Shown one piece after another: positions 48,819 to 60,366 of a DNA stretch of 64,000 bases. The notes beneath the pieces were generated by a model. The model saw only the letters and a program-made list of their open reading frames with translations. It was not told the DNA's origin and made no database searches. The stretch comes from Dehalococcoidia bacterium (GTDB lineage: Bacteria; Chloroflexota; Dehalococcoidia; Tepidiformales; Tepidiformaceae): positions 62,001 through 126,000 of the forward strand of contig PQAO01000024.1 in the NCBI GenBank assembly GCA_003104995.1. Direction: 5' to 3'. The translations under genes were made by a program, and so were the position numbers. The stretch's first letter is position 1, and each line of letters starts with the position of its first letter.

Positions 48819-49340
48819 CTACATCTCCGTGGTCCACCGGAGGCCGCCAATGTCCGGGCCCTGGCCTTCCAGCACGTACGTTGCTGCGTCGAGGATGTCG
48901 CGCTCGGTCCAGAGGTATCTTGTACTCCCGTGCCGTGTCCACACCTTCTCCTGGGAACCTACGAGCCGGGCTTCGCGGAGGCGGCGTGTTGCCCAGGACT
49001 TGAACGCGTTCATCATCCTTTCGGGCGTTGCGGGCCCGGACACGACGATGTGCACGTGGTTGGTCCGGACGTTGAGCGCATGGAGGCGCCAGTTGTGGTG
49101 TGAACAAACCCCGCGGGCGGCATCCGCGACAGCTTGGCGTTGTTCTCCATGGAGCGTCATCGCCGTCGAAAGCAGAACTTGCCGCTCGCGGCCCTCACGG
49201 CCCTGGTCTGGCAAGAGTTCGCGGACTCCCGCGCCGGCAGCGCGAAGCCGCTCGACCGAGCCGCGCTCGTCGCCGTGGAGGCGCTCACCGTAAGTCGTGA
49301 ACGTGATGAAGTAGCCTGCCGGGGAGTTGGCGTGGGTCAT
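48819..49340 (-). CDS. REP-associated tyrosine transposase (RAYT, Y1/HUH family)
   Basis: The 173-residue protein has the single HUH motif NHVHIVVSG (about 94-102) and a catalytic-type Tyr in DAATYVLEG (Tyr155) close to the C-terminus. The order and the YFITFTTYGERLHGD start are those of the TnpA_REP/IS200-like RAYT group. RAYTs nick and join single strands at REP sequences and are thought to spread REPs. REP-like elements lie on both sides (A-D downstream, E upstream), which strongly supports the pairing. A TTG two codons earlier is an alternative start. The gene appears intact. Confidence 0.92.
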   Translation of the reverse strand: MTHANSPAGYFITFTTYGERLHGDERGSVERLRAAGAGVRELLPDQGREGRERQVLLSTAMTLHGEQRQAVADAARGVCSHHNWRLHALNVRTNHVHIVVSGPATPERMMNAFKSWATRRLREARLVGSQEKVWTRHGSTRYLWTERDILDAATYVLEGQGPDIGGLRWTTEM

Positions 49341-49348
49341 ACCCAAAG

Positions 49349-49375
49349 GCCTCCCTTTCGGTCGGATCCACGGCC
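49349..49375 (+). repeat. REP-like element E (diverged)
   Basis: GCCTCCCTTTCGGTCGGATC matches the REP core CACCTCCCTGACGGTCGG with three differences. It lies 9 bp upstream of the transposase start, so the gene is bracketed by REP copies. Confidence 0.65.
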
Positions 49376-49385
49376 TGGCGGCGCG

Positions 49386-50426
49386 TTACACCGGGAGCCA
49401 GTAGAGCTTGCCGGCGCGCATCACCTTCGAGACGCGGCCGGTCTCGAACAGGTATTCCATGTGGGCGATCGTCTCGCCGACGGCGGCGCGCTGCATGTGG
49501 GCCTCGAAGTCGGCGAGAGAACCGGTGGCCCACTTGACTCTGCCGGCGACTTCCCACGCGGTCGAGCCCCCGCGGTCGACGCAGTTCACCATCTCATCGA
49601 GGCGGACTTTGTGGTGATCTTCGATTTCGCGGAGGCGCTTCTTGAGGTCGTGGATTTCGAATTCGTGCGCCGGGAGGACGATCTCGACATCCAGGTCTTC
49701 GAGGAGTTCGAGGGAGCGCATGTAGTCGCCGAGCGGGCTGCCGTGGGTCTGGGCGTGGATGCTCACGTTGGGGGTGATGGTCGGGAGCACGTGGTCGCCG
49801 GTGAGGAGGATCTTGCGGTTCGGCTCGTAGAGGCAGATGTGCCCGGGCGAGTGGCCCGGCGTCCAGATGATCTCGAAGTCGAAGTCGCCGACCTTGAACG
49901 TCTCGCCGCCCTTCACCTCGGTGTCGGCGGGGACCGGGGCCACGTTTCCAAGCATGCCCATCGAACCGCGGGCCATGGTCGGGGTGTCCATCGCGGGGAC
50001 GCCGTTGGTCTCCATGAATTTGCCCATCTCGTCCATCAGGCCTTTGGGGGCGAAGTAGCGGGCCGTGATGACTTCGGCGTCCTTTTCGTGGAGGACGATC
50101 TCGCAGCTGGAGAGCTGCTTCAGGCGTCCGGCCATGCCGTAGTGGTCGGGGTGGACGTGGGTGACGACGAGCTTATTGATGTCGTTGGGATGGGAGCCGT
50201 GCTCCTTCATCCCCTCTTCGAGGGCCTGGTAGGCGGTGTCGGTGTTCCAGCCGCAGTCAACCAGGACCGTGTCGTCCCCATCCTTGAGGAGGTAGGGGAG
50301 GACGTAGGGAAGGCCCTTGGTGACGCGGGGGTGCTCCTGGAGGTCGTGGCGGAGGGCCTTAGCGTCGGCGATGGTGAACTGGGGGAACGGCGTAAGCAGC
50401 TGGTAGATGCCGTCGATGATGCGCAT
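49386..50426 (-). CDS. MBL-fold metallo-hydrolase
   Basis: The 346-residue protein has the metallo-beta-lactamase fold: HxHxDH in VVTHVHPDHYGMAG (about residues 86-99), a second ligand His in IIWTPGHSPGHICLYE, Asp in LLTGDHVLP, and a later His in LPAHEFEIHDLKKRL. A C-terminal helical domain of about 80 residues follows, as in the lactonase/thioesterase-like LACTB2 subgroup. It should bind two zinc ions. Substrate unknown. It lies upstream (on the minus strand) of the REP-RAYT cluster. Confidence 0.93.
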   Translation of the reverse strand: MRIIDGIYQLLTPFPQFTIADAKALRHDLQEHPRVTKGLPYVLPYLLKDGDDTVLVDCGWNTDTAYQALEEGMKEHGSHPNDINKLVVTHVHPDHYGMAGRLKQLSSCEIVLHEKDAEVITARYFAPKGLMDEMGKFMETNGVPAMDTPTMARGSMGMLGNVAPVPADTEVKGGETFKVGDFDFEIIWTPGHSPGHICLYEPNRKILLTGDHVLPTITPNVSIHAQTHGSPLGDYMRSLELLEDLDVEIVLPAHEFEIHDLKKRLREIEDHHKVRLDEMVNCVDRGGSTAWEVAGRVKWATGSLADFEAHMQRAAVGETIAHMEYLFETGRVSKVMRAGKLYWLPV

Positions 50427-50520
50427 GTGAACGTTGCCTTCGGGTTGGCTCGCCGCCCCACGCGGGGGTTGGCGGCTGAGGCCGATACTACGCGAGGTTG
50501 TTCACGCGAGGCAAAACACC

Positions 50521-51432
50521 TCAGTTCGAAGAGACGGCGATCGCGAGCGCCAGCAGGAGCCCCAGCATGAGATTGAACCGGGCGGTGGCCTTGAGGACCG
50601 GGTTGAGGGCGCCGCCGGTAGTGCCGCCGATGATGGCCCGGAAGGGACGGACCGCCCAGGGGAGGCTGGCGGGCGCCGCTGCCCATGCCCACTCGGCGGT
50701 GGACAGTATCGAGATGGCGACAGGCACGGCCAGCGCCACCAGCAACAGGATCACGAACCAGGCGCGCGTACCACGATCGCCGAGGATGACTCCGAGGGTG
50801 GTCTTCCCGGTCTTACGGTCGGTCGGAATATCGCGCAGGTTGTTGACCACCAGGATCTGGGTGACGGTGCAGCCCACGGGAACGGCCGCGGCGACAGCGA
50901 GCGCGGGGACGTCACCGGCCTGGACGTAGTACGTGCCCACAACGGCGACGAGCCCGAAGAAGACGAACACGAAAATATCGCCGAGGGCGTGGTAGCCGAT
51001 GGGCCACGGCCCACCCGTGTAGATGATCGCGGCGGCGATGCTCGCGAGCCCCACCGCGACGATCGGCCAGCCGCCGACGTACACGAGATAGACGCCGACG
51101 GCCATGGCAAGGGCGAAGGTCAGCCACATGCCGATGAGCATCTGGCGGGCGCTCACGAAGCCCATCTGGGTCGCGCGCGGCGGGCCGAGACGCTCGCTGG
51201 TATCGGCGCCCTTCTTGAAATCGAAGACATCGTTGGCGAAATTGGCGCCGACCTGGAGGAGGAGGGCGCCAGCGAGGGCAGCCAATGCCGGGAAGAAGTC
51301 GAACACGTCGAGGTGGATGGCCACGCCGATGCCGACCGCGACTGGTGCGACCGCCGCGGTAAGGGTGGGAAGGCGGGTGGCGAGTTTCCACACCTGGAAG
51401 GTGGACGGGCGAGCCGGGGCAACAGCGGTCAC
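50521..51432 (-). CDS. menA: UbiA-family prenyltransferase (MenA-like)
   Basis: The 303-residue membrane enzyme has eight or nine TM helices and both Asp-rich loops: NFANDVFDFKKGAD (NDxxD type, about residues 65-78) and NNLRDIPTDRKTGK (about 195-208). MenA attaches a polyprenyl chain to 1,4-dihydroxy-2-naphthoate. The GTG start overlaps the stop of the UbiE gene (GTGA). Pairing with UbiE strongly suggests menaquinone synthesis, although UbiA homologues with other substrates exist. Confidence 0.88.
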   Translation of the reverse strand: MTAVAPARPSTFQVWKLATRLPTLTAAVAPVAVGIGVAIHLDVFDFFPALAALAGALLLQVGANFANDVFDFKKGADTSERLGPPRATQMGFVSARQMLIGMWLTFALAMAVGVYLVYVGGWPIVAVGLASIAAAIIYTGGPWPIGYHALGDIFVFVFFGLVAVVGTYYVQAGDVPALAVAAAVPVGCTVTQILVVNNLRDIPTDRKTGKTTLGVILGDRGTRAWFVILLLVALAVPVAISILSTAEWAWAAAPASLPWAVRPFRAIIGGTTGGALNPVLKATARFNLMLGLLLALAIAVSSN

Positions 51433-52136
51433 GCGAGCACCGCGCTGACGGACTGGATGGCGCCGAACATGGGCGAGCGCTTCCTGGTGCGGGCGAACCC
51501 GGCCGCCTCGAGCATGGCGCGGAGCTCGGCCTCGGGGGGGAGGTAGGAGGCGGACTGGGGCAAGTACCGGTAGGCCTTGCGGTCGGCGATCAGCCCGCCG
51601 ACGAGGGGGACGACCCGGTTGAAGTAGAGGCCATGGCCGGCGGCGACCATCGGGTTGCGGGGCTTGTCGACTTCGAGCAGGCCGAGGCGGCCACCCGGCT
51701 TGAGCACGCGCGCGAGTTCTTCGAGCACGGGCGGGATGGCAACGAAGTTCCGGAGAGCGAAGCCGGAGACGGCCACGGTGAACGACCCGCCGGCGAAGGG
51801 GAGGCGGAGGGCATCGCCCTGGACGAAGATACCGAGACCGGGGAAGCGCCGGTTGGCAGCATTCAGCATCCCGCGCGAGAAATCGAGGCCAACCGTGGTG
51901 GCGCCGGCCTTACGGCAGATCTCGGCGAAGTCGCCGGTACCGCAGGCGAGGTCGAGGACGAGGTCGCCGGGCCCAACGCGCAGGCGGCGCACGAGCTCGC
52001 GCCGCCAGCGCTGGTCGGCATTGAAGGTCATCAGCCGGTTCACCCGGTCATAGCCCGGCGAGATACGGTCGAACATGTCGCGGACGGCGGCTGCCTTTTC
52101 GGCGGGAGGTGGAAGGGCGGACATCGGTACATTCAT
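51429..52136 (-). CDS. ubiE: Demethylmenaquinone methyltransferase
   Basis: The 235-residue class I methyltransferase has the UbiE/MenG signature: VRDMFDRISPGYDRVNRLMTF at the N-terminus, AdoMet motif VLDLACGTGDFAEI, the SGFALRNF segment and RVLKPGGRLGLLEVDKP, with a C-terminal Y-x-Y-LPQSA-S block. It methylates the ring of demethylmenaquinone in the last step. Translation is coupled to menA by a 4-bp overlap. No ribosome-binding site is obvious before the ATG. Confidence 0.94.
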   Translation of the reverse strand: MNVPMSALPPPAEKAAAVRDMFDRISPGYDRVNRLMTFNADQRWRRELVRRLRVGPGDLVLDLACGTGDFAEICRKAGATTVGLDFSRGMLNAANRRFPGLGIFVQGDALRLPFAGGSFTVAVSGFALRNFVAIPPVLEELARVLKPGGRLGLLEVDKPRNPMVAAGHGLYFNRVVPLVGGLIADRKAYRYLPQSASYLPPEAELRAMLEAAGFARTRKRSPMFGAIQSVSAVLA

Positions 52137-52181
52137 ACCCGATTTCGGGCGTACAGCGTGTGGGCGTGGCGGGAGGCCGCG

Positions 52182-52625
52182 TTAGCCGACGCGTTCAGCG
52201 ATCTTCTTCGGGTTGATGATGCGGGAGAGGAAGAAGCTCACCAGGCTGATGATGACCGCTCCCCAGAAGGCAGCCCAGAAGCTATCGATATCGAACCGGA
52301 TGCTGTCGAACTTCCCGGCGATCCAGGCGGTAAGAGCGAGAAGGGCGGTGTTGATCAGGATGAGGAAGAGGCCGAGGGTGAGGACCAGGGCCGGCAGCGA
52401 GCCGAAAACCATGAGCGGCTTCAGGTAGGCGTTGAGGAGACCGAGGATGAGGGCGACCGCGAGGGTACTCCCCCAGCCTTCGAGGTGGATGCCGCCCACG
52501 AGTCCGGCGGCGACCCACACGGCCACCGCTGTGGTGAGCCAGCGGACGACGAACGCCGCGACCCGGCCCGCACCAGAGGGCTCGCGGTTGCGGCCGCCGA
52601 CAGTCACGACGACGAAATCAGGCAT
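52182..52625 (-). CDS. Four-helix membrane protein, phage-holin-4_2 family
   Basis: The 147-residue protein has a hydrophilic N-terminus and four TM helices (about residues 22-44, 53-72, 78-102, 112-135), with GLLNAYLKPLMVFGSLPALVLTLGLF typical of the holin_4_2/YvlD group. These are chromosomal membrane proteins of unknown function and are not prophage markers. It lies 37 bp after the last signalling gene and may share its transcript. Confidence 0.88.
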   Translation of the reverse strand: MPDFVVVTVGGRNREPSGAGRVAAFVVRWLTTAVAVWVAAGLVGGIHLEGWGSTLAVALILGLLNAYLKPLMVFGSLPALVLTLGLFLILINTALLALTAWIAGKFDSIRFDIDSFWAAFWGAVIISLVSFFLSRIINPKKIAERVG

Positions 52626-52661
52626 CAGCGCCAGTTAACCACGGCGCGGGCGATCTGGCGA

Positions 52662-53462
52662 TCAGGCGGCCTGGCGGAGCATGGCGAGCATGGTCTGCTG
52701 GAAGCGGACGCGCTTATCGGTATCACGGATTTCGCCGCTGATGCGTTCGGCCAGCGAGGCGACGGCGTCGCGCGGGAGCGTGGCACGGGTGAAGCCGAGA
52801 TCTTCGACCGCGTCATCGATGATGATTTCGGCGAGCGGGCCGAGGGCAAGAGCGACGGCGCCAGTGAGCGCCTGGAAAAACTGGGCGCCGGCAAGCTGGC
52901 GGACCGGGGCCGGGGCAGCCTGGGGCGCGGTGAGGTCGATGAGCCCGGCGAGCCGGAGGCGGTAGAGACGGCGGACGGCCTCGAAGTCATCGACGCCCAG
53001 GCCGGCGGCGATGCTGGCTGCGGTGGCCTGCCCGTCGATGAGCGCGAGGACTTCCCAGTCCATCGCTTCGATGGTGACCGACGGGGCCGGGGCCTTGCGG
53101 ACGAGCCGGGGGAGGGTATCCATGGAGGGGATGACGCGGCGCATGGCCTCTCGCTCACCGGCGGCGCGAGCAGAATCGGCGAGGAGCGCGTCGAGGGGTT
53201 TGTCGATGGTACGGTCGGGGGGCGGCACGCCTGGCTCGAAGCGGAACTGGCCGTTGGGCCAGGCGACGAGCCGAAGAAAGGCCTGCTCTCCCCAGTGTGG
53301 ACCGGACTCGGCATGGACGACCGCGCCGCCGGCCAGGTAGATATCGGCCGTATCGAGACCGGAGGTGAGCTCGAGGCGGCCGTTCTGGCCACCCGCCGCG
53401 AGCATCTTGAGCAGGTCGGCAAGCGGCAACTGGGCCAGGCTCCCGGTCAATCCTTCAGGCAT
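52662..53462 (-). CDS. DUF4388 (PATAN-like) protein A
   Basis: The 266-residue protein starts with a DUF4388 domain: LTGSLAQLPLADLLKMLAAGGQNGRLELTS, IYLAGGAVVHAESGPHWGEQAFLRLVAWPNGQFRFEPG (shown across two strands). A winged-helix-like segment (about 130-175, MDWEVLALIDGQATAASIAAGLG) and a helical C-terminus follow. DUF4388 domains are associated with two-component and GTPase-type signalling and are thought to mediate protein interactions. It is the last gene of the HAMP-roadblock cluster. Confidence 0.83.
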   Translation of the reverse strand: MPEGLTGSLAQLPLADLLKMLAAGGQNGRLELTSGLDTADIYLAGGAVVHAESGPHWGEQAFLRLVAWPNGQFRFEPGVPPPDRTIDKPLDALLADSARAAGEREAMRRVIPSMDTLPRLVRKAPAPSVTIEAMDWEVLALIDGQATAASIAAGLGVDDFEAVRRLYRLRLAGLIDLTAPQAAPAPVRQLAGAQFFQALTGAVALALGPLAEIIIDDAVEDLGFTRATLPRDAVASLAERISGEIRDTDKRVRFQQTMLAMLRQAA

Positions 53463-53495
53463 GATGTCCCTCCCTTGCGCCCGGACTGGGGCGCG

Positions 53496-53945
53496 TTAGC
53501 TCCCACGCGATTGGATGATGGCCCAGGAGCTCCACGAGCCCTGGTCGAGGGCGGCGCGGCTTACCAGCGACGAACGCTCGGCGCGGTGGCGCTGCAACCG
53601 CTTCTGGGCGGCGTTGTCCCTCTGCCAGCCCCCGATGACCACGTCCGCGCTCATGCGGACCATGGCCATGCTGGTATCGGGCTGGCAGACGACAAACAGG
53701 ACAGCATCTCCGATGTCCTGGGCGAGAAGGCGCCAGCCGTCGTAGACAAACTCGATCTTCGAAGCCGGCTGGCCGGCGGTTTCGAGGGCGACGAACGCGC
53801 GGCCGACTTCCCGGCCGATGGTGTTCATTGTCACGGTGGCGAGGACGGCCGGGTCGGAGCTCACGATCACGTCGCCGCGGTTGTCGCAGAGAAACGACCC
53901 ACCGACACCGGGCACCGTACTGATCTGCTCCAGTTCCTTTTCCAT
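53496..53945 (-). CDS. Roadblock/LC7-like protein A
   Basis: The 149-residue protein has a roadblock/LC7 fold pattern: the helix ELEQISTVPGVGGSFLCDNRGDVIVSS, a paired helix with TMNTIGREVGRAFVALET, and KIEFVYDGWRLLAQDIGDAVLFVVCQ strands. Such proteins (MglB type) act as GTPase-activating or scaffolding partners of small Ras-like GTPases. No GTPase is encoded in this operon. A helical C-terminal tail of about 45 residues is extra. Confidence 0.75.
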   Translation of the reverse strand: MEKELEQISTVPGVGGSFLCDNRGDVIVSSDPAVLATVTMNTIGREVGRAFVALETAGQPASKIEFVYDGWRLLAQDIGDAVLFVVCQPDTSMAMVRMSADVVIGGWQRDNAAQKRLQRHRAERSSLVSRAALDQGSWSSWAIIQSRGS

Positions 53946-53957
53946 GCCGACCTCTAT

Positions 53958-54992
53958 TCAGGCAACGAGTTCGATGAAGTCATCGCGGAGGCCAAACCGG
54001 TCAACGACGGGTGCGTGCTTTTCGCTGAGGCCTTCGAGCCGGGCGCGGACCCGTTGTTCGAGGTCGGAGCGCTTGAGCTGGAAGGCGAGCTTGGAGACGG
54101 TGTCGCTGAGGCAGTCGCCGAGCGCCTTGCTGAAATCGTCGGGAAGGGGACCGTCGAACTCGATGTGCGAGCCGGTGTACTCGAACTCCGCGGCGAACGG
54201 ATCCAGGAACGGATAGGTGACAGCCCGGGAGACAAGGACCTCTTTGAAGGCAAGCGAGAAGCGGCCGGGACGGGAGAGGCCGTCGGCGACCGCTTCGACG
54301 CCGGCGAGCACTTCGTCCCAGAAGGCGAGGAGCGCCTCGCGGTGGGATTCCTGGGCTGAGCCCGGGGCCGCGGGACGAGAGGCGGAAGCGCCCGGCGCCG
54401 ATTCCGCTTCGACGAAGACGTTGAAGGAGCCGCCGGTGGCGCCGACCATCTGGACGATCGCGTTGAGCGCCTCCTGGCCGGCAACAAACTCGGATTGCGT
54501 GGAGAGGACGCTTTCGACCGGTTCGCCGGCCGAGAGGTAGATCACGCCGGCGCCCATGCCGTCGGACACCTGGACCTCCACGTATCCGGTGAGGCCGTCG
54601 GTCCGGAGCTTGGCGATGAGCCGGTCGAGGCTGGTGAAGGCGCTGGTGAGGTCTTTGTAGAGGGGCCTGCTATCCATCAGGCGGTGGAGGAGCAGCACCA
54701 CATCCGGGAAGGCGGAGAAGACGTTGACGATGCCGTCCTTCTCGGCTGCGCGGGCACAGATGGCGCGGACGGCGGGGGCCCCGGTGATGCGGCCGGTGGC
54801 AGCCTCTTCGCAGGCGTTGACGATTTCACCTTCGGAAACGAGCAGTGTGCCGGTGTAGCCGGCGAAGGTGAGCTCCACGTAGCCGGTCAGTCTGCGGGCC
54901 TTGAGATCCGCGAGGAGCGCCTCGAACGAGGTGAACGAGGTGTTCAGGTTGGCATAGATGGTCCGGTCCTTGGGGAACATCATCTTGATCAT
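53958..54992 (-). CDS. Double DUF4388-like protein B
   Basis: The 344-residue protein has two related modules: YANLNTSFTSFEALLADL through VSEGEIVNACEE (about 12-62) and YKDLTSAFTSLDRLIAKL through YLSAGEPVESVL (about 108-155). Both follow the DUF4388-like pattern TGYVE(L/V). The third part (about 200-344) is an alpha-rich domain of unknown family. The ATG overlaps the stop of the roadblock gene upstream (ATGA), so translation is coupled; ATG codons 3 and 4 codons later are alternatives. Confidence 0.8.
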   Translation of the reverse strand: MIKMMFPKDRTIYANLNTSFTSFEALLADLKARRLTGYVELTFAGYTGTLLVSEGEIVNACEEAATGRITGAPAVRAICARAAEKDGIVNVFSAFPDVVLLLHRLMDSRPLYKDLTSAFTSLDRLIAKLRTDGLTGYVEVQVSDGMGAGVIYLSAGEPVESVLSTQSEFVAGQEALNAIVQMVGATGGSFNVFVEAESAPGASASRPAAPGSAQESHREALLAFWDEVLAGVEAVADGLSRPGRFSLAFKEVLVSRAVTYPFLDPFAAEFEYTGSHIEFDGPLPDDFSKALGDCLSDTVSKLAFQLKRSDLEQRVRARLEGLSEKHAPVVDRFGLRDDFIELVA

Positions 54993-55408
54993 CTCCTCGT
55001 GGCGGTATTGGGGGTGAGTGCGTGGCGGCGAAGCACCTGGGCGATTGCCGGCAGGATGGCGGCGGAGCGGCCACTGGCCACGGCGAGGGCAATGTAGGTC
55101 TGCCCCGCGACGCCGCAAATGAGCCTGTCGATGGCGCCAGGGCCCGAGATGAGCACATGGTCGAGGCGGCTGCCGGCGAGCTGGCGGCCCATGCCGCGGA
55201 GGTCGCCATCAACCGGGAGTGCCTCCGCGCGGAGGGCCACGAAACTGGCGAGGGCAGCATCGCGCGCCGGTTCGGTCGAGCCGGATGCCGCGAGGGCCGT
55301 ACCGGCGGCGTCGCAGACGAGGGCCGACCGCACGCCATCGATGGCGGCAACTGCCGAGGCGAGCCGTGACGCCACGGCCCGATCCAGGGTTGCAGTTGAA
55401 GTCGCCAT
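54989..55408 (-). CDS. Roadblock/LC7-like protein B
   Basis: The 139-residue protein repeats the roadblock layout: LASAVAAIDGVRSALVCDAAGTALAASG, a helix DAALASFVALRAEAL, then LDHVLISGPGAIDRLICGVAGQTYIALAVASG. The ATG giving MATSTATLD has GGAGG 8 nt upstream, which favours it over an ATG five codons earlier. It lies 34 bp after the HAMP sensor gene and overlaps the next gene. With roadblock A it could form a homo- or heterodimer. Confidence 0.72.
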   Translation of the reverse strand: MATSTATLDRAVASRLASAVAAIDGVRSALVCDAAGTALAASGSTEPARDAALASFVALRAEALPVDGDLRGMGRQLAGSRLDHVLISGPGAIDRLICGVAGQTYIALAVASGRSAAILPAIAQVLRRHALTPNTATRR

Positions 55409-55442
55409 CTCGTCGGCCTCCATGTGATTACGCTACTTCCGC

Positions 55443-56669
55443 TCAGGCCGCGGCCCGGCGCTGGCGCAGCCGCTCGATGGCGGAGCGCAGGCTGGCCTGC
55501 ATGCGGCGGAGCGATTCGGCGAGCTGGCCGACCTCGTTGCGTCCTTCGACGTCGATGTCGACATCGAGTTCGCCAAGGCTCATGCGGTCCGCGACTTCGG
55601 CGAGGTGCTTGAGCGGGCGCGTGATGGTGGCCGAGATGAAGACGGCGAGGGCGAGGGCGAGCGTGACGATGAGGGCGGCGGCACTGCCGTAGGTCACGAA
55701 TTCCTGCTGGGCCTCGCTGGTGCGCTCGGCGAACCGGGCATCGAGCGTCTCCTGGGCGGCCGCGAGCAGCTGGTTGGACGTGTCGATGGCGCTGCCGCCC
55801 AGGAGGAAGTATCCCTCGGCCCCGGTGGGCGAGAGGGCGGCGGCTTCGATGATGCCAGTGCTGGTGGAGTCGGCGAAGACAGAGCGCGACGTTTCGGCGC
55901 GGCGGGCAATGGGGCGGAGGGTGGCCTCGAAGTCGGGGTTCGCGCGCATGGCGGTTTCGAGGGAGCGGGCGAGCGCATCGGCGTGGGCGGCGGCGATGCT
56001 CATCTGGGCGGTGAGGAACTGCTTCTGTTCGGCGGTGGCGGCGAGGCCCTGGCGCGAAATGAGCGCGGCCGTGCCATAGCTACGGGACTGGGAGAGCGCC
56101 TCGGTGAGCCGTGGGAGGGAGTCGGTGAGGGCGATGATGACACTGCGGCCATCGAGGTCGGGGTCGAGGACGAGCTTCGACTCGATGGCGACGGTGGAGA
56201 GGAGGGGGAAGATGCCCTGTTGGATGATGCGCGTGTGGGCGTCGTTTGCTTCGGTCGCGCTGGACTGCATTTCCTTGACCTTCGGCCACTCGGCGTTGAG
56301 GAACTGGACGAGGGCGGATGTCTGGAAATCTTCGCCGTGGCGGGAGTCGAGGTCGTTGATGACGGCAAGAGCCGAGTCGGCGGCGGCGGCGGTGCGGACC
56401 ATATTGTCGCGGGAGAACTCGTCACCGCTGAGGACGCGCTGGACGAGCCCGCGATGGACCTGGACTTCGCGGAGGAAGGGGATGATGGCGGAGACATAGT
56501 CGAGGCCATCGGCTTCGGCACTTGCCTGGTCCTGGGTATCGGCCCTCTGCTGGTACTGGACGAACAGAAGCGCCGCGATGGGCAGCGCAAGCACGACCAC
56601 GATCAGGCCGAGTTTGCTGGAGATCCCGAGGTTCGCGATAGCGGAAAAGCCGGGCAAGTGACGTCGCAT
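55443..56669 (-). CDS. Nitrate-sensor-like/HAMP membrane sensor lacking an output domain
   Basis: The 408-residue protein has TM1 (residues 18-38), a long extracytoplasmic helical domain (about 39-320) with the FLREVQVHRGLVQRVLSGD pattern of NIT-type sensors, TM2 (about 325-347) and a HAMP domain (348-400, ITRPLKHLAEVADRMSLGELDV). The protein ends right after HAMP; no kinase, methyl-accepting or cyclase domain follows. GGAGGG lies just before the ATG. It should signal by contact to the roadblock/DUF4388 proteins of the same operon. Confidence 0.87.
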   Translation of the reverse strand: MRRHLPGFSAIANLGISSKLGLIVVVLALPIAALLFVQYQQRADTQDQASAEADGLDYVSAIIPFLREVQVHRGLVQRVLSGDEFSRDNMVRTAAAADSALAVINDLDSRHGEDFQTSALVQFLNAEWPKVKEMQSSATEANDAHTRIIQQGIFPLLSTVAIESKLVLDPDLDGRSVIIALTDSLPRLTEALSQSRSYGTAALISRQGLAATAEQKQFLTAQMSIAAAHADALARSLETAMRANPDFEATLRPIARRAETSRSVFADSTSTGIIEAAALSPTGAEGYFLLGGSAIDTSNQLLAAAQETLDARFAERTSEAQQEFVTYGSAAALIVTLALALAVFISATITRPLKHLAEVADRMSLGELDVDIDVEGRNEVGQLAESLRRMQASLRSAIERLRQRRAAA

Positions 56670-59170: not shown

Positions 59171-59199
59171 GCCACCGGCGCGTGTGCCGTCCTCCTGCA

Positions 59200-59230
59200 G
59201 TGGCCCCGCCGTGCGAACCGGCGGGGCCAC
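59200..59230 (+). terminator. Perfect 12-bp hairpin after acyl-CoA dehydrogenase (2)
   Basis: GTGGCCCCGCCG pairs with CGGCGGGGCCAC around a 7-nt loop, 29 bp after the stop codon. The lack of a T-run makes it a weak intrinsic terminator; it may stabilise the 3' end. Confidence 0.7.
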
Positions 59231-59268
59231 ACTGGTTGCGCGAGCAAGGGGCGAGTATTGTCGCCTCC

Positions 59269-60366
59269 ATGGTGACCCTGCTGATCAACGGCCACACGTC
59301 AGTGACCCCGGCCGGGGCCCCCGGCCCCGGGCCGTGGGTGCCTGTGAGCCAAATGGCGGCTCTGACCGGGTGGGACCTGAAGCCCGAAGGCGCGTGCCTG
59401 GGCGAGCGGTGCGTGCCGATCCCTCCGGGTCGTTCGGACGAGTTCGAACGCGAAGGCTGGTTCAATATGGCAGCGCTGGCCGCCCATCTTGGACAGCCGC
59501 TGGCCGAAGACGCGGAAACGGAGACGTGGTGCATCGGCGAAGCTCCGGCGGACCGGGCAACGGCACTGAATTCGGCGATCGCGCCCGACTTCAGGCTTCC
59601 GGACTACCGGGGGACGGAGTACACGCTCAGCCAGTTCAGGGGACGGAAGGTGTTCCTCGTTTCGTGGGCATCGTGGTGAGGATGCCGCCATGACCTGCCC
59701 GTGTGGCAGGCGCTGACCGAGGAGTTGGCCGATACCGGCCTCACAATCGTGGCGGTGGCGCTCGAGTCGCGCGGCCTCGATGCAGCCTTGCCGTACATCG
59801 AGGCCGCCAACCCGACCTACCCGTGCCTCGTCGATCGGCAGCACGTGGTGGCCGAACTGTTCGGGATGGTGAACGTGCCGACAGCCGTCTGGATCAACGA
59901 GGAGGGCCGGATCGTTAGGCCGCCGGAGCCCGCGGGGACGAACGACGCGTTCCGCAAGATGGACCCGGCGACGGGCCGGCTCGCAGCGGAAGACCGGCAG
60001 GCGCTGCGAGACGAACGGCAACGGTACCTCGATGGCGTTCGTGACTGGGCGCGCCGTGGGGATGAGTCGCCGTGGGCGCTCGACGAAGCGGTCGTCCGGA
60101 GCCGGCTCGCCCGGCCCAGGGGGGAGCATGAACTCGCCCGCGTCCACTTCCGGCTTGGCGAGCATCTCTGGGAGCTGGGGCACGGCGACCGCGCACAGGC
60201 TCACTTCGCCCAGGCAGTGCGCCTCCACCCCGAGAGCTGGGCGTACCGGCGCCAGGCGCTGGACCTGGAACAGCAAGGCAAATCCATGGGGCGGGAGTAC
60301 TGGGAGGCGGTGACCGCTCTCGGCGACCGGCACTACTACCCGCCGATCATCGCGCCCGAGAGTTAA
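59269..60366 (+). CDS. Redoxin with in-frame UGA at the active-site Cys position (probable selenoprotein)
   Basis: Read through the TGA at 59677-59679, the ORF is 365 codons, all in one frame. Residues 1-100 form an N-terminal domain (LTGWDLKPEGACLGERCVPIP). Residues 108-245 are a thioredoxin/TlpA-like domain: APDFRLPDYRGTEYTLSQFRGRKVFLVSWASW, then U137, GCRHDLPVWQALTEEL, and the cis-Pro segment GMVNVPTAVWINEEG. The C-terminal third is helical with a TPR-like unit. Close relatives have Cys where UGA stands here (WASWCGCR-type), so selenocysteine is the simplest reading. A TATTGT box ends 7 nt before the ATG. A recent nonsense mutation is the alternative. Confidence 0.78.
59680..59710 (+). promoter_or_regulatory. 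Candidate bacterial SECIS hairpin
   Basis: Starting 14 nt after the UGA, CCTGCC pairs with GGCAGG around a CGTGT loop. Distance and size fit the SelB-binding upper stem-loop of bacterial SECIS elements, and the loop contains GU. The sequence also encodes the conserved DLPVWQ, so the hairpin must be read as a double-use region. Confidence 0.5.

Follow-up and report, generated by a model that had tools for sequence, protein, structure and literature searches.

A conserved operon of an output-less HAMP receptor, roadblock and DUF4388/PATAN proteins without a detectable GTPase in the Tepidiformaceae

Conservons link four proteins, namely a sensor histidine kinase (CvnA), an MglB-type roadblock protein (CvnB), a DUF742 protein (CvnC) and a Ras-like GTPase (CvnD). 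In MglA/MglB systems, MglA is the GTPase and the roadblock protein MglB its GAP, and PATAN genes occur close to some of the MglA genes, according to PMC4316618, which cites Makarova 2006 for the latter point. The same paper describes orphan MglBs that lie next to conservon genes and have lost mglA. PATAN (DUF4388) domains are also found in PATAN-receiver proteins of Synechocystis, which bind PilB1 (PMC9090330, PMC7690835). Finally, the membrane protein Af1503 of Archaeoglobus fulgidus has a HAMP domain but no output domain on its cytoplasmic side (PMC3585426).

The locus described here combines parts of these systems. It comes from a metagenome-assembled genome (MAG) of 3.24 Mb in the family Tepidiformaceae, which includes Tepidiforma, and was found in a window of 64,000 nucleotides, that is, the whole stretch of DNA that was analyzed (contig PQAO01000024.1, positions 62,001 to 126,000). 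Five tightly spaced open reading frames (ORFs) run from position 56669 to 52662 on the minus strand in the order HAMP receptor, RB1, DUFa2, RB2 and DUFb1:

55443..56669, minus strand: receptor, 408 aa, assigned from the Pfam HAMP match, hydropathy and alignments of orthologues, with the conserved tail SLRSAIERLRQRRAAA
55443..55490, minus strand: codons of the receptor tail SLxxAIERLRxRR, a proposed docking element based on conservation across groups
54989..55423, minus strand: RB1, divergent roadblock protein, 144 aa, assigned from an AlphaFold2 model and Robl_LC7 matches in orthologues
53958..54983, start at 54983 or 54992, minus strand: DUFa2, 341 aa, two DUF4388/PATAN modules and a C-terminal domain
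53496..53945, minus strand: RB2, divergent roadblock protein with a C-terminal helical extension, 149 aa, assigned from an AlphaFold2 model
52662..53462, minus strand: DUFb1, 266 aa, DUF4388/PATAN, a winged-helix-like region at about residues 130-180 and a conserved C-terminal domain

According to the ORF coordinates, the gaps along the operon measure 19, 5, 12 and 33 nt, and no terminator-like site occurs in any of the four. No kinase, CheA or receiver gene was found within the five-gene operon. A menaquinone link, in which the downstream UbiE and MenA genes would be part of the module, was rejected, as neither gene lies beside the operon in other genera.

As in conservons, a HAMP-bearing membrane sensor is joined to a roadblock protein, with two roadblock folds providing the CvnB-type feature. 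However, the remaining three of the four defining features are missing: the operon has no histidine kinase, no protein of the five matches DUF742 at E <= 1, and no CvnD-type GTPase was found in the operon, the window or any of 38 Tepidiformaceae genomes. The operon instead combines DUF4388 proteins with a second roadblock and a winged-helix protein. Conservon membership was rejected on these grounds. A reading made from the sequence alone had proposed five co-directional, closely spaced genes forming a conservon-like module without kinase or GTPase; the gene layout and both absences hold, but the module is not a conservon, and its kin are HAMP-PATAN-roadblock modules. The operon resembles MglA/MglB systems in its clustering of roadblock and PATAN genes, and its distant relatives hold MglA and MglB-like proteins. 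It differs from them in lacking MglA, and the passages of PMC4316618 on PATAN genes near MglA do not mention an output-less HAMP receptor with a tail.

Hydropathy places transmembrane segments of the receptor at about residues 8-41 and 323-353, with an extracytoplasmic sensor region between them. The HAMP domain spans residues 344-395 (Pfam E 2e-15), and the polypeptide stops 13 residues past it, as do its orthologues. The receptor has no HATPase domain, no histidine-kinase H-box motif and no Pfam domain other than HAMP, and a Pfam scan of 11 receptor orthologues yielded no NIT match. In alignments of orthologues, invariant residues lie mostly within the HAMP domain and the tail, and the sensor region is variable. 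The tail SLxxAIERLRxRR is conserved in Tepidiformaceae, Ca. Aquidulcis and Desulfobacterota, and in a looser form in Coatesbacteria. A combined HAMP and tail profile separated tail receptors (at least 83 bits) from other HAMP proteins (at most 59 bits) and scored 117.9 bits in the window genome; among 350 sampled genomes of Chloroflexota, the matches to the tail pattern outside Tepidiformaceae were not HAMP receptors. The receptor profile also matches the HAMP domain of Af1503, which resembles the operon receptor as an output-less HAMP in a membrane protein. To our knowledge, Af1503 has no roadblock or PATAN partners.

Both roadblock proteins are divergent. RB1 matches Pfam Robl_LC7 at E 0.27 and 11.4 bits, below the gathering score of 23, although 9 of its 11 orthologues match Robl_LC7 (best 5e-4). 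RB2 alone has no Pfam match, and a Robl_LC7 search found a Pfam-level roadblock gene in none of the 38 Tepidiformaceae genomes. Searches of the RB1, RB2 and DUFa2 sequences against solved structures gave no significant match, and a profile comparison of RB1 with RB2 gave a probability of 25%. Given this divergence, the fold rather than the Pfam score was taken as decisive. AlphaFold2 models, which were built from family alignments, have the roadblock topology alpha-beta-beta-alpha-beta-beta-beta-alpha (pLDDT 82.9 for RB1 and 89.9 for RB2). The best match of both is the Streptomyces roadblock 3kye (VIA-align Z 16.4 and rmsd 2.1 over 116 residues for RB1; Z 14.9 and rmsd 2.2 over 112 residues for RB2), RB2 also matches MglB 6hjm (Z 14.6), and chains of roadblock/LC7, MglB and Ragulator proteins head the Foldseek and VIA-align results. 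In addition, a roadblock HMM made from other loci only matched just RB1 and RB2 among 390 window ORFs (1.5e-16 and 3.4e-5). The models confirm the roadblock fold of RB1 and RB2, so that the first condition named as refuting the sequence-only reading, small proteins with another fold, does not hold. Ragulator/LAMTOR and archaeal roadblock dimers, in which roadblock folds act as scaffolds, are among the top fold matches; Ragulator scaffolds Rag GTPases, whereas searches of Tepidiformaceae turned up none that is comparable.

Both DUF4388 proteins exceed the Pfam cut-off of 25 bits, DUFa2 over two stretches (E 6.5e-6, 26.6 bits) and DUFb1 with E 1.2e-19 and 70.9 bits. The assignments made from the sequence alone, namely a membrane sensor ending after HAMP, two small roadblock-like proteins and two DUF4388 proteins of which one has two modules, all proved sound. 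The winged-helix region of DUFb1 (HTH matches in orthologues, best 2.8e-5) and its C-terminal domain had escaped that reading. Possibly, the winged helix functions solely in contacts between proteins. Like the receiver-PATAN pilus regulators PixE, PixG and LsiR, the operon has DUF4388/PATAN as a protein-binding module downstream of a sensor; unlike them, its proteins lack a receiver, and PATAN is duplicated in DUFa2 and fused to a winged helix in DUFb1. The C-terminal domain of DUFa2 was also considered as a decayed GTPase. This was rejected, as it has no Walker A motif and DUFa2 homologues occur alongside MglA in other phyla.

Conservation in the family was surveyed by DUFb1 and DUFa2 searches over 38 Tepidiformaceae genomes and tblastn on fetched regions. 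The full five-gene order is present in 12 of the 38, from five genera: the window genome and 11 others (G002, G003, G004, G006, G017, G018, G021, G022, G024, G025 and G026). In G005 the operon is divided between contig ends, in G007 it is fragmentary, G014 and G019 hold only a lone DUFa2 homologue, and no operon homologue was found in the other genomes surveyed. Protein identities fall to 31-48% in the most distant full-order genomes, and the flanking genes differ between genomes whereas the five-gene order persists. The order is thus not due to chance, and the genome-context search suggested by the sequence-only reading supports it; the second refuting condition, a gene order without conservation, fails as well. 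Relative to the two nearest genomes, dN/dS of the operon genes was 0.025-0.22, with RB1 the highest, and that of the neighboring UbiE and MBL genes was 0.027-0.084; values at larger distances were saturated and were left out. Judging from these ratios, the operon is under purifying selection.

Relatives outside the family were sought with the DUFa2 profile in genomes of 84,980 species, and were found in Ca. Aquidulcis, Desulfobacterales/Deltaproteobacteria and Coatesbacteria. On contigs of sufficient length, these loci encode a HAMP protein together with roadblock and DUF4388 proteins, as well as a GTPase of 194-201 aa with nucleotide-binding motifs. The HAMP proteins likewise end directly past HAMP with a tail similar to SLxxAIERLRxRR. 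A profile search located the HAMP and tail receptor in 35 of 317 Desulfobacterota genomes. Within 9 kb of 23 tail-receptor loci, for which neighbor lists stop where contigs end, there are DUFa2/DUFb1-type genes in 19, a roadblock gene in 16 and MglA in 15, each MglA lying on the same strand. At the level of whole genomes, MglA was found in 36 of 40 tail-positive genomes outside Tepidiformaceae and in none of nine tail-positive Tepidiformaceae; among 20 tail-negative genomes from the phylum of the Desulfobacterota relative, 11 had it. We propose to group these loci as HAMP-PATAN-roadblock modules with an AIERLR-tail receptor, a grouping into which the window operon falls by its tail receptor and the neighboring PATAN and roadblock genes, but without MglA.

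The MglA profile matched none of the 38 Tepidiformaceae genomes, and the same profile, as a positive control, matched 102 of 400 Chloroflexota. The search for an MglA-like GTPase elsewhere, another check put forward with the original reading, therefore found none. MAGs are incomplete, but the genomes without MglA include three single-contig ones (G021, G022 and G026). Because most relatives' modules do have MglA, the absence is better explained by loss in a single lineage than by an original GTPase-free design. The DUFa2 tree unites the Tepidiformaceae (99/99) and, with weak support, places them close to Desulfobacterota and Ca. Aquidulcis that bear MglA; several of its inner branches are weak, and as the tree is unrooted, loss is the simpler but unproven reading. 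The orphan MglBs beside conservon genes offer a precedent for GTPase loss in itself. In several MglA-bearing clusters (L228, L230 and L231), the gene directly before DUFa2 encodes a receiver-PATAN-roadblock protein, and in Tepidiformaceae this position is taken by the bare roadblock RB1. RB1, which scores only 10.9 bits against one such protein, may be the roadblock end left over from a receiver-PATAN-roadblock protein like those at this position in Desulfobacterota. The bare RB1 position and the absence of MglA and MglB point to a module that has shed its GTPase, GAP and receiver parts.

We give a probability of roughly 55% to the reading in which the five genes form one Tepidiformaceae-specific derivative of a HAMP-PATAN-roadblock-MglA module, free of GTPase, kinase and receiver, that signals directly from receptor to scaffold with DUFb1 as the output. 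HAMP domains relay signals via coiled-coil changes. An extracytoplasmic signal would alter the HAMP coiled coil of the receptor, and the SLxxAIERLRxRR tail would then dock on and alter a scaffold of RB1/RB2 and DUFa2/DUFb1. The tail, which belongs to the most strongly conserved section of a receptor with a variable sensor region, is taken as the docking element. Output would most likely pass through DUFb1, in the simplest form by membrane-controlled release or sequestration of the winged helix, with an effect on transcription; a PATAN partner could serve as output instead. A broader proposal, which we put forward tentatively and at somewhat less than even odds, is that of GTPase-independent roadblock signaling in which the AIERLR tail contacts a roadblock/PATAN scaffold controlling a winged-helix regulator, and which evolved by stripping GTPase, GAP and receiver from a widespread, undescribed HAMP-PATAN-roadblock-MglA system. 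In the open-licence literature searched, we found no description of the tail SLxxAIERLRxRR of a HAMP receptor, of a family-wide GTPase-free five-gene module or of an MglA-linked HAMP-tail receptor.

The main alternative output is a pilus or secretion ATPase, since several Desulfobacterota clusters hold a co-directional large ATPase of 780-800 aa adjoining the HAMP receptor; the one that was scanned reads TPR-MshEN-T2SSE and is followed by a PilZ protein. The module would then drive a type IV pilus or related secretion motor, its PATAN proteins binding a PilB-like ATPase under receptor control, and its output would not be transcription. The binding of PilB1 by the Synechocystis proteins favors such a role, but those proteins carry a receiver domain that is missing from DUFa2 and DUFb1, and no pilus gene adjoins the operon in the neighborhoods of the Tepidiformaceae loci examined, making this alternative unlikely.

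Dependence on a divergent small GTPase encoded elsewhere in the genome and serving RB1/RB2 is in our judgment improbable. Roadblock proteins are generally viewed as NTPase regulators (PMC4316618), and very divergent GTPases can escape profiles; against this stand the MglA result with its strong positive control and a Roc-family search that gave only weak matches in frames of 465-1099 aa, of which the three that were read are Der or IF-2. The family's lack of a Pfam-level roadblock gene likewise argues against it, as this is expected if RB1 and RB2 drifted after loss of the GTPase.

HAMP domains are exchangeable between receptors, and among solved structures the receptor profile fits chemoreceptor HAMPs best. 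The receptor could act in trans with a histidine kinase or chemoreceptor array encoded at another locus, perhaps as a HAMP-only partner in mixed dimers, with the other genes as adaptors. We hold this to be very improbable, given that the family-specific tail accompanies roadblock/PATAN genes across phyla and that the operon itself encodes neither kinase, CheA nor receiver. That the operon is a decaying, functionless remnant of an MglA system would agree with its having lost the GTPase, the MglB and the receiver parts that its relatives possess, but is hardly credible in view of the intact frames, an order conserved in 12 genomes and dN/dS values within or somewhat above the UbiE/MBL range.

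What is known of bacterial roadblocks is their partnership with Ras-like GTPases; PMC4316618 reports no characterized orphan of the MglB type, and a function without GTPase would thus be unprecedented among studied cases. Our preferred reading, a GTPase-free derivative of an MglA-linked module, bears on this directly: in Tepidiformaceae, a receptor, roadblocks and PATAN proteins are retained by selection without a detectable GTPase, which constitutes a natural experiment on the roles of roadblock and PATAN proteins on their own. Beyond the family, the receptor consisting of HAMP and a short tail occurs in about one in nine of the sampled Desulfobacterota genomes and usually adjoins MglA, for which it would be an input that works without a chemosensory array or its own histidine kinase.

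In the window, a redoxin-like frame at 59182-60366 is broken by a stop near 59679-59701, and may represent either an assembly frameshift or two genes. Two plus-strand ORFs of 908 aa (51633-54359) and 478 aa (49134-50570) lie antisense to real genes and are most likely not genes but a by-product of the high GC content. In Tepidiforma flava, what looks like an ECF-type sigma factor is encoded on the minus strand (L036:11960-12598), facing the operon end, with a proline-rich protein encoded upstream; this gene has no counterpart at the same place in the window genome.

In Ca. Aquidulcis, a single protein (L091:6177-7334) encoded just upstream of the PATAN-roadblock cluster combines a receiver domain with an apparent Rab/Ras-like GTPase domain C-terminal to it. 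Three-domain receiver-PATAN-roadblock proteins are encoded at four Desulfobacterota loci, in three of which a homologue of the DUF4388/PATAN protein DUFa2 is encoded immediately downstream:

L228:3028-4182, receiver-PATAN-roadblock protein
L231:4642-5796, receiver-PATAN-roadblock protein
L230:6048-7244, receiver-PATAN-roadblock protein
L240:9295-10437, receiver-PATAN-roadblock protein

At L230 (8194-9452) the HAMP-tail receptor occurs in tandem, and short frames of 121-122 aa with HAMP and tail, such as that at L231:6670-7035, lie close to contig ends.

Output-less HAMP receptors with the SLxxAIERLRxRR tail were found in 35 of 317 Desulfobacterota genomes, where their genes (loci L227-L246, L092 and L093) are mostly clustered co-directionally with MglA, roadblock and PATAN genes. 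Several of these clusters also encode a 780-800 aa ATPase, with a TPR-MshEN-T2SSE domain make-up in the one protein scanned. The Desulfobacterota HAMP-tail receptors seem to constitute a receptor-type input to MglA systems, one that is apparently undescribed.
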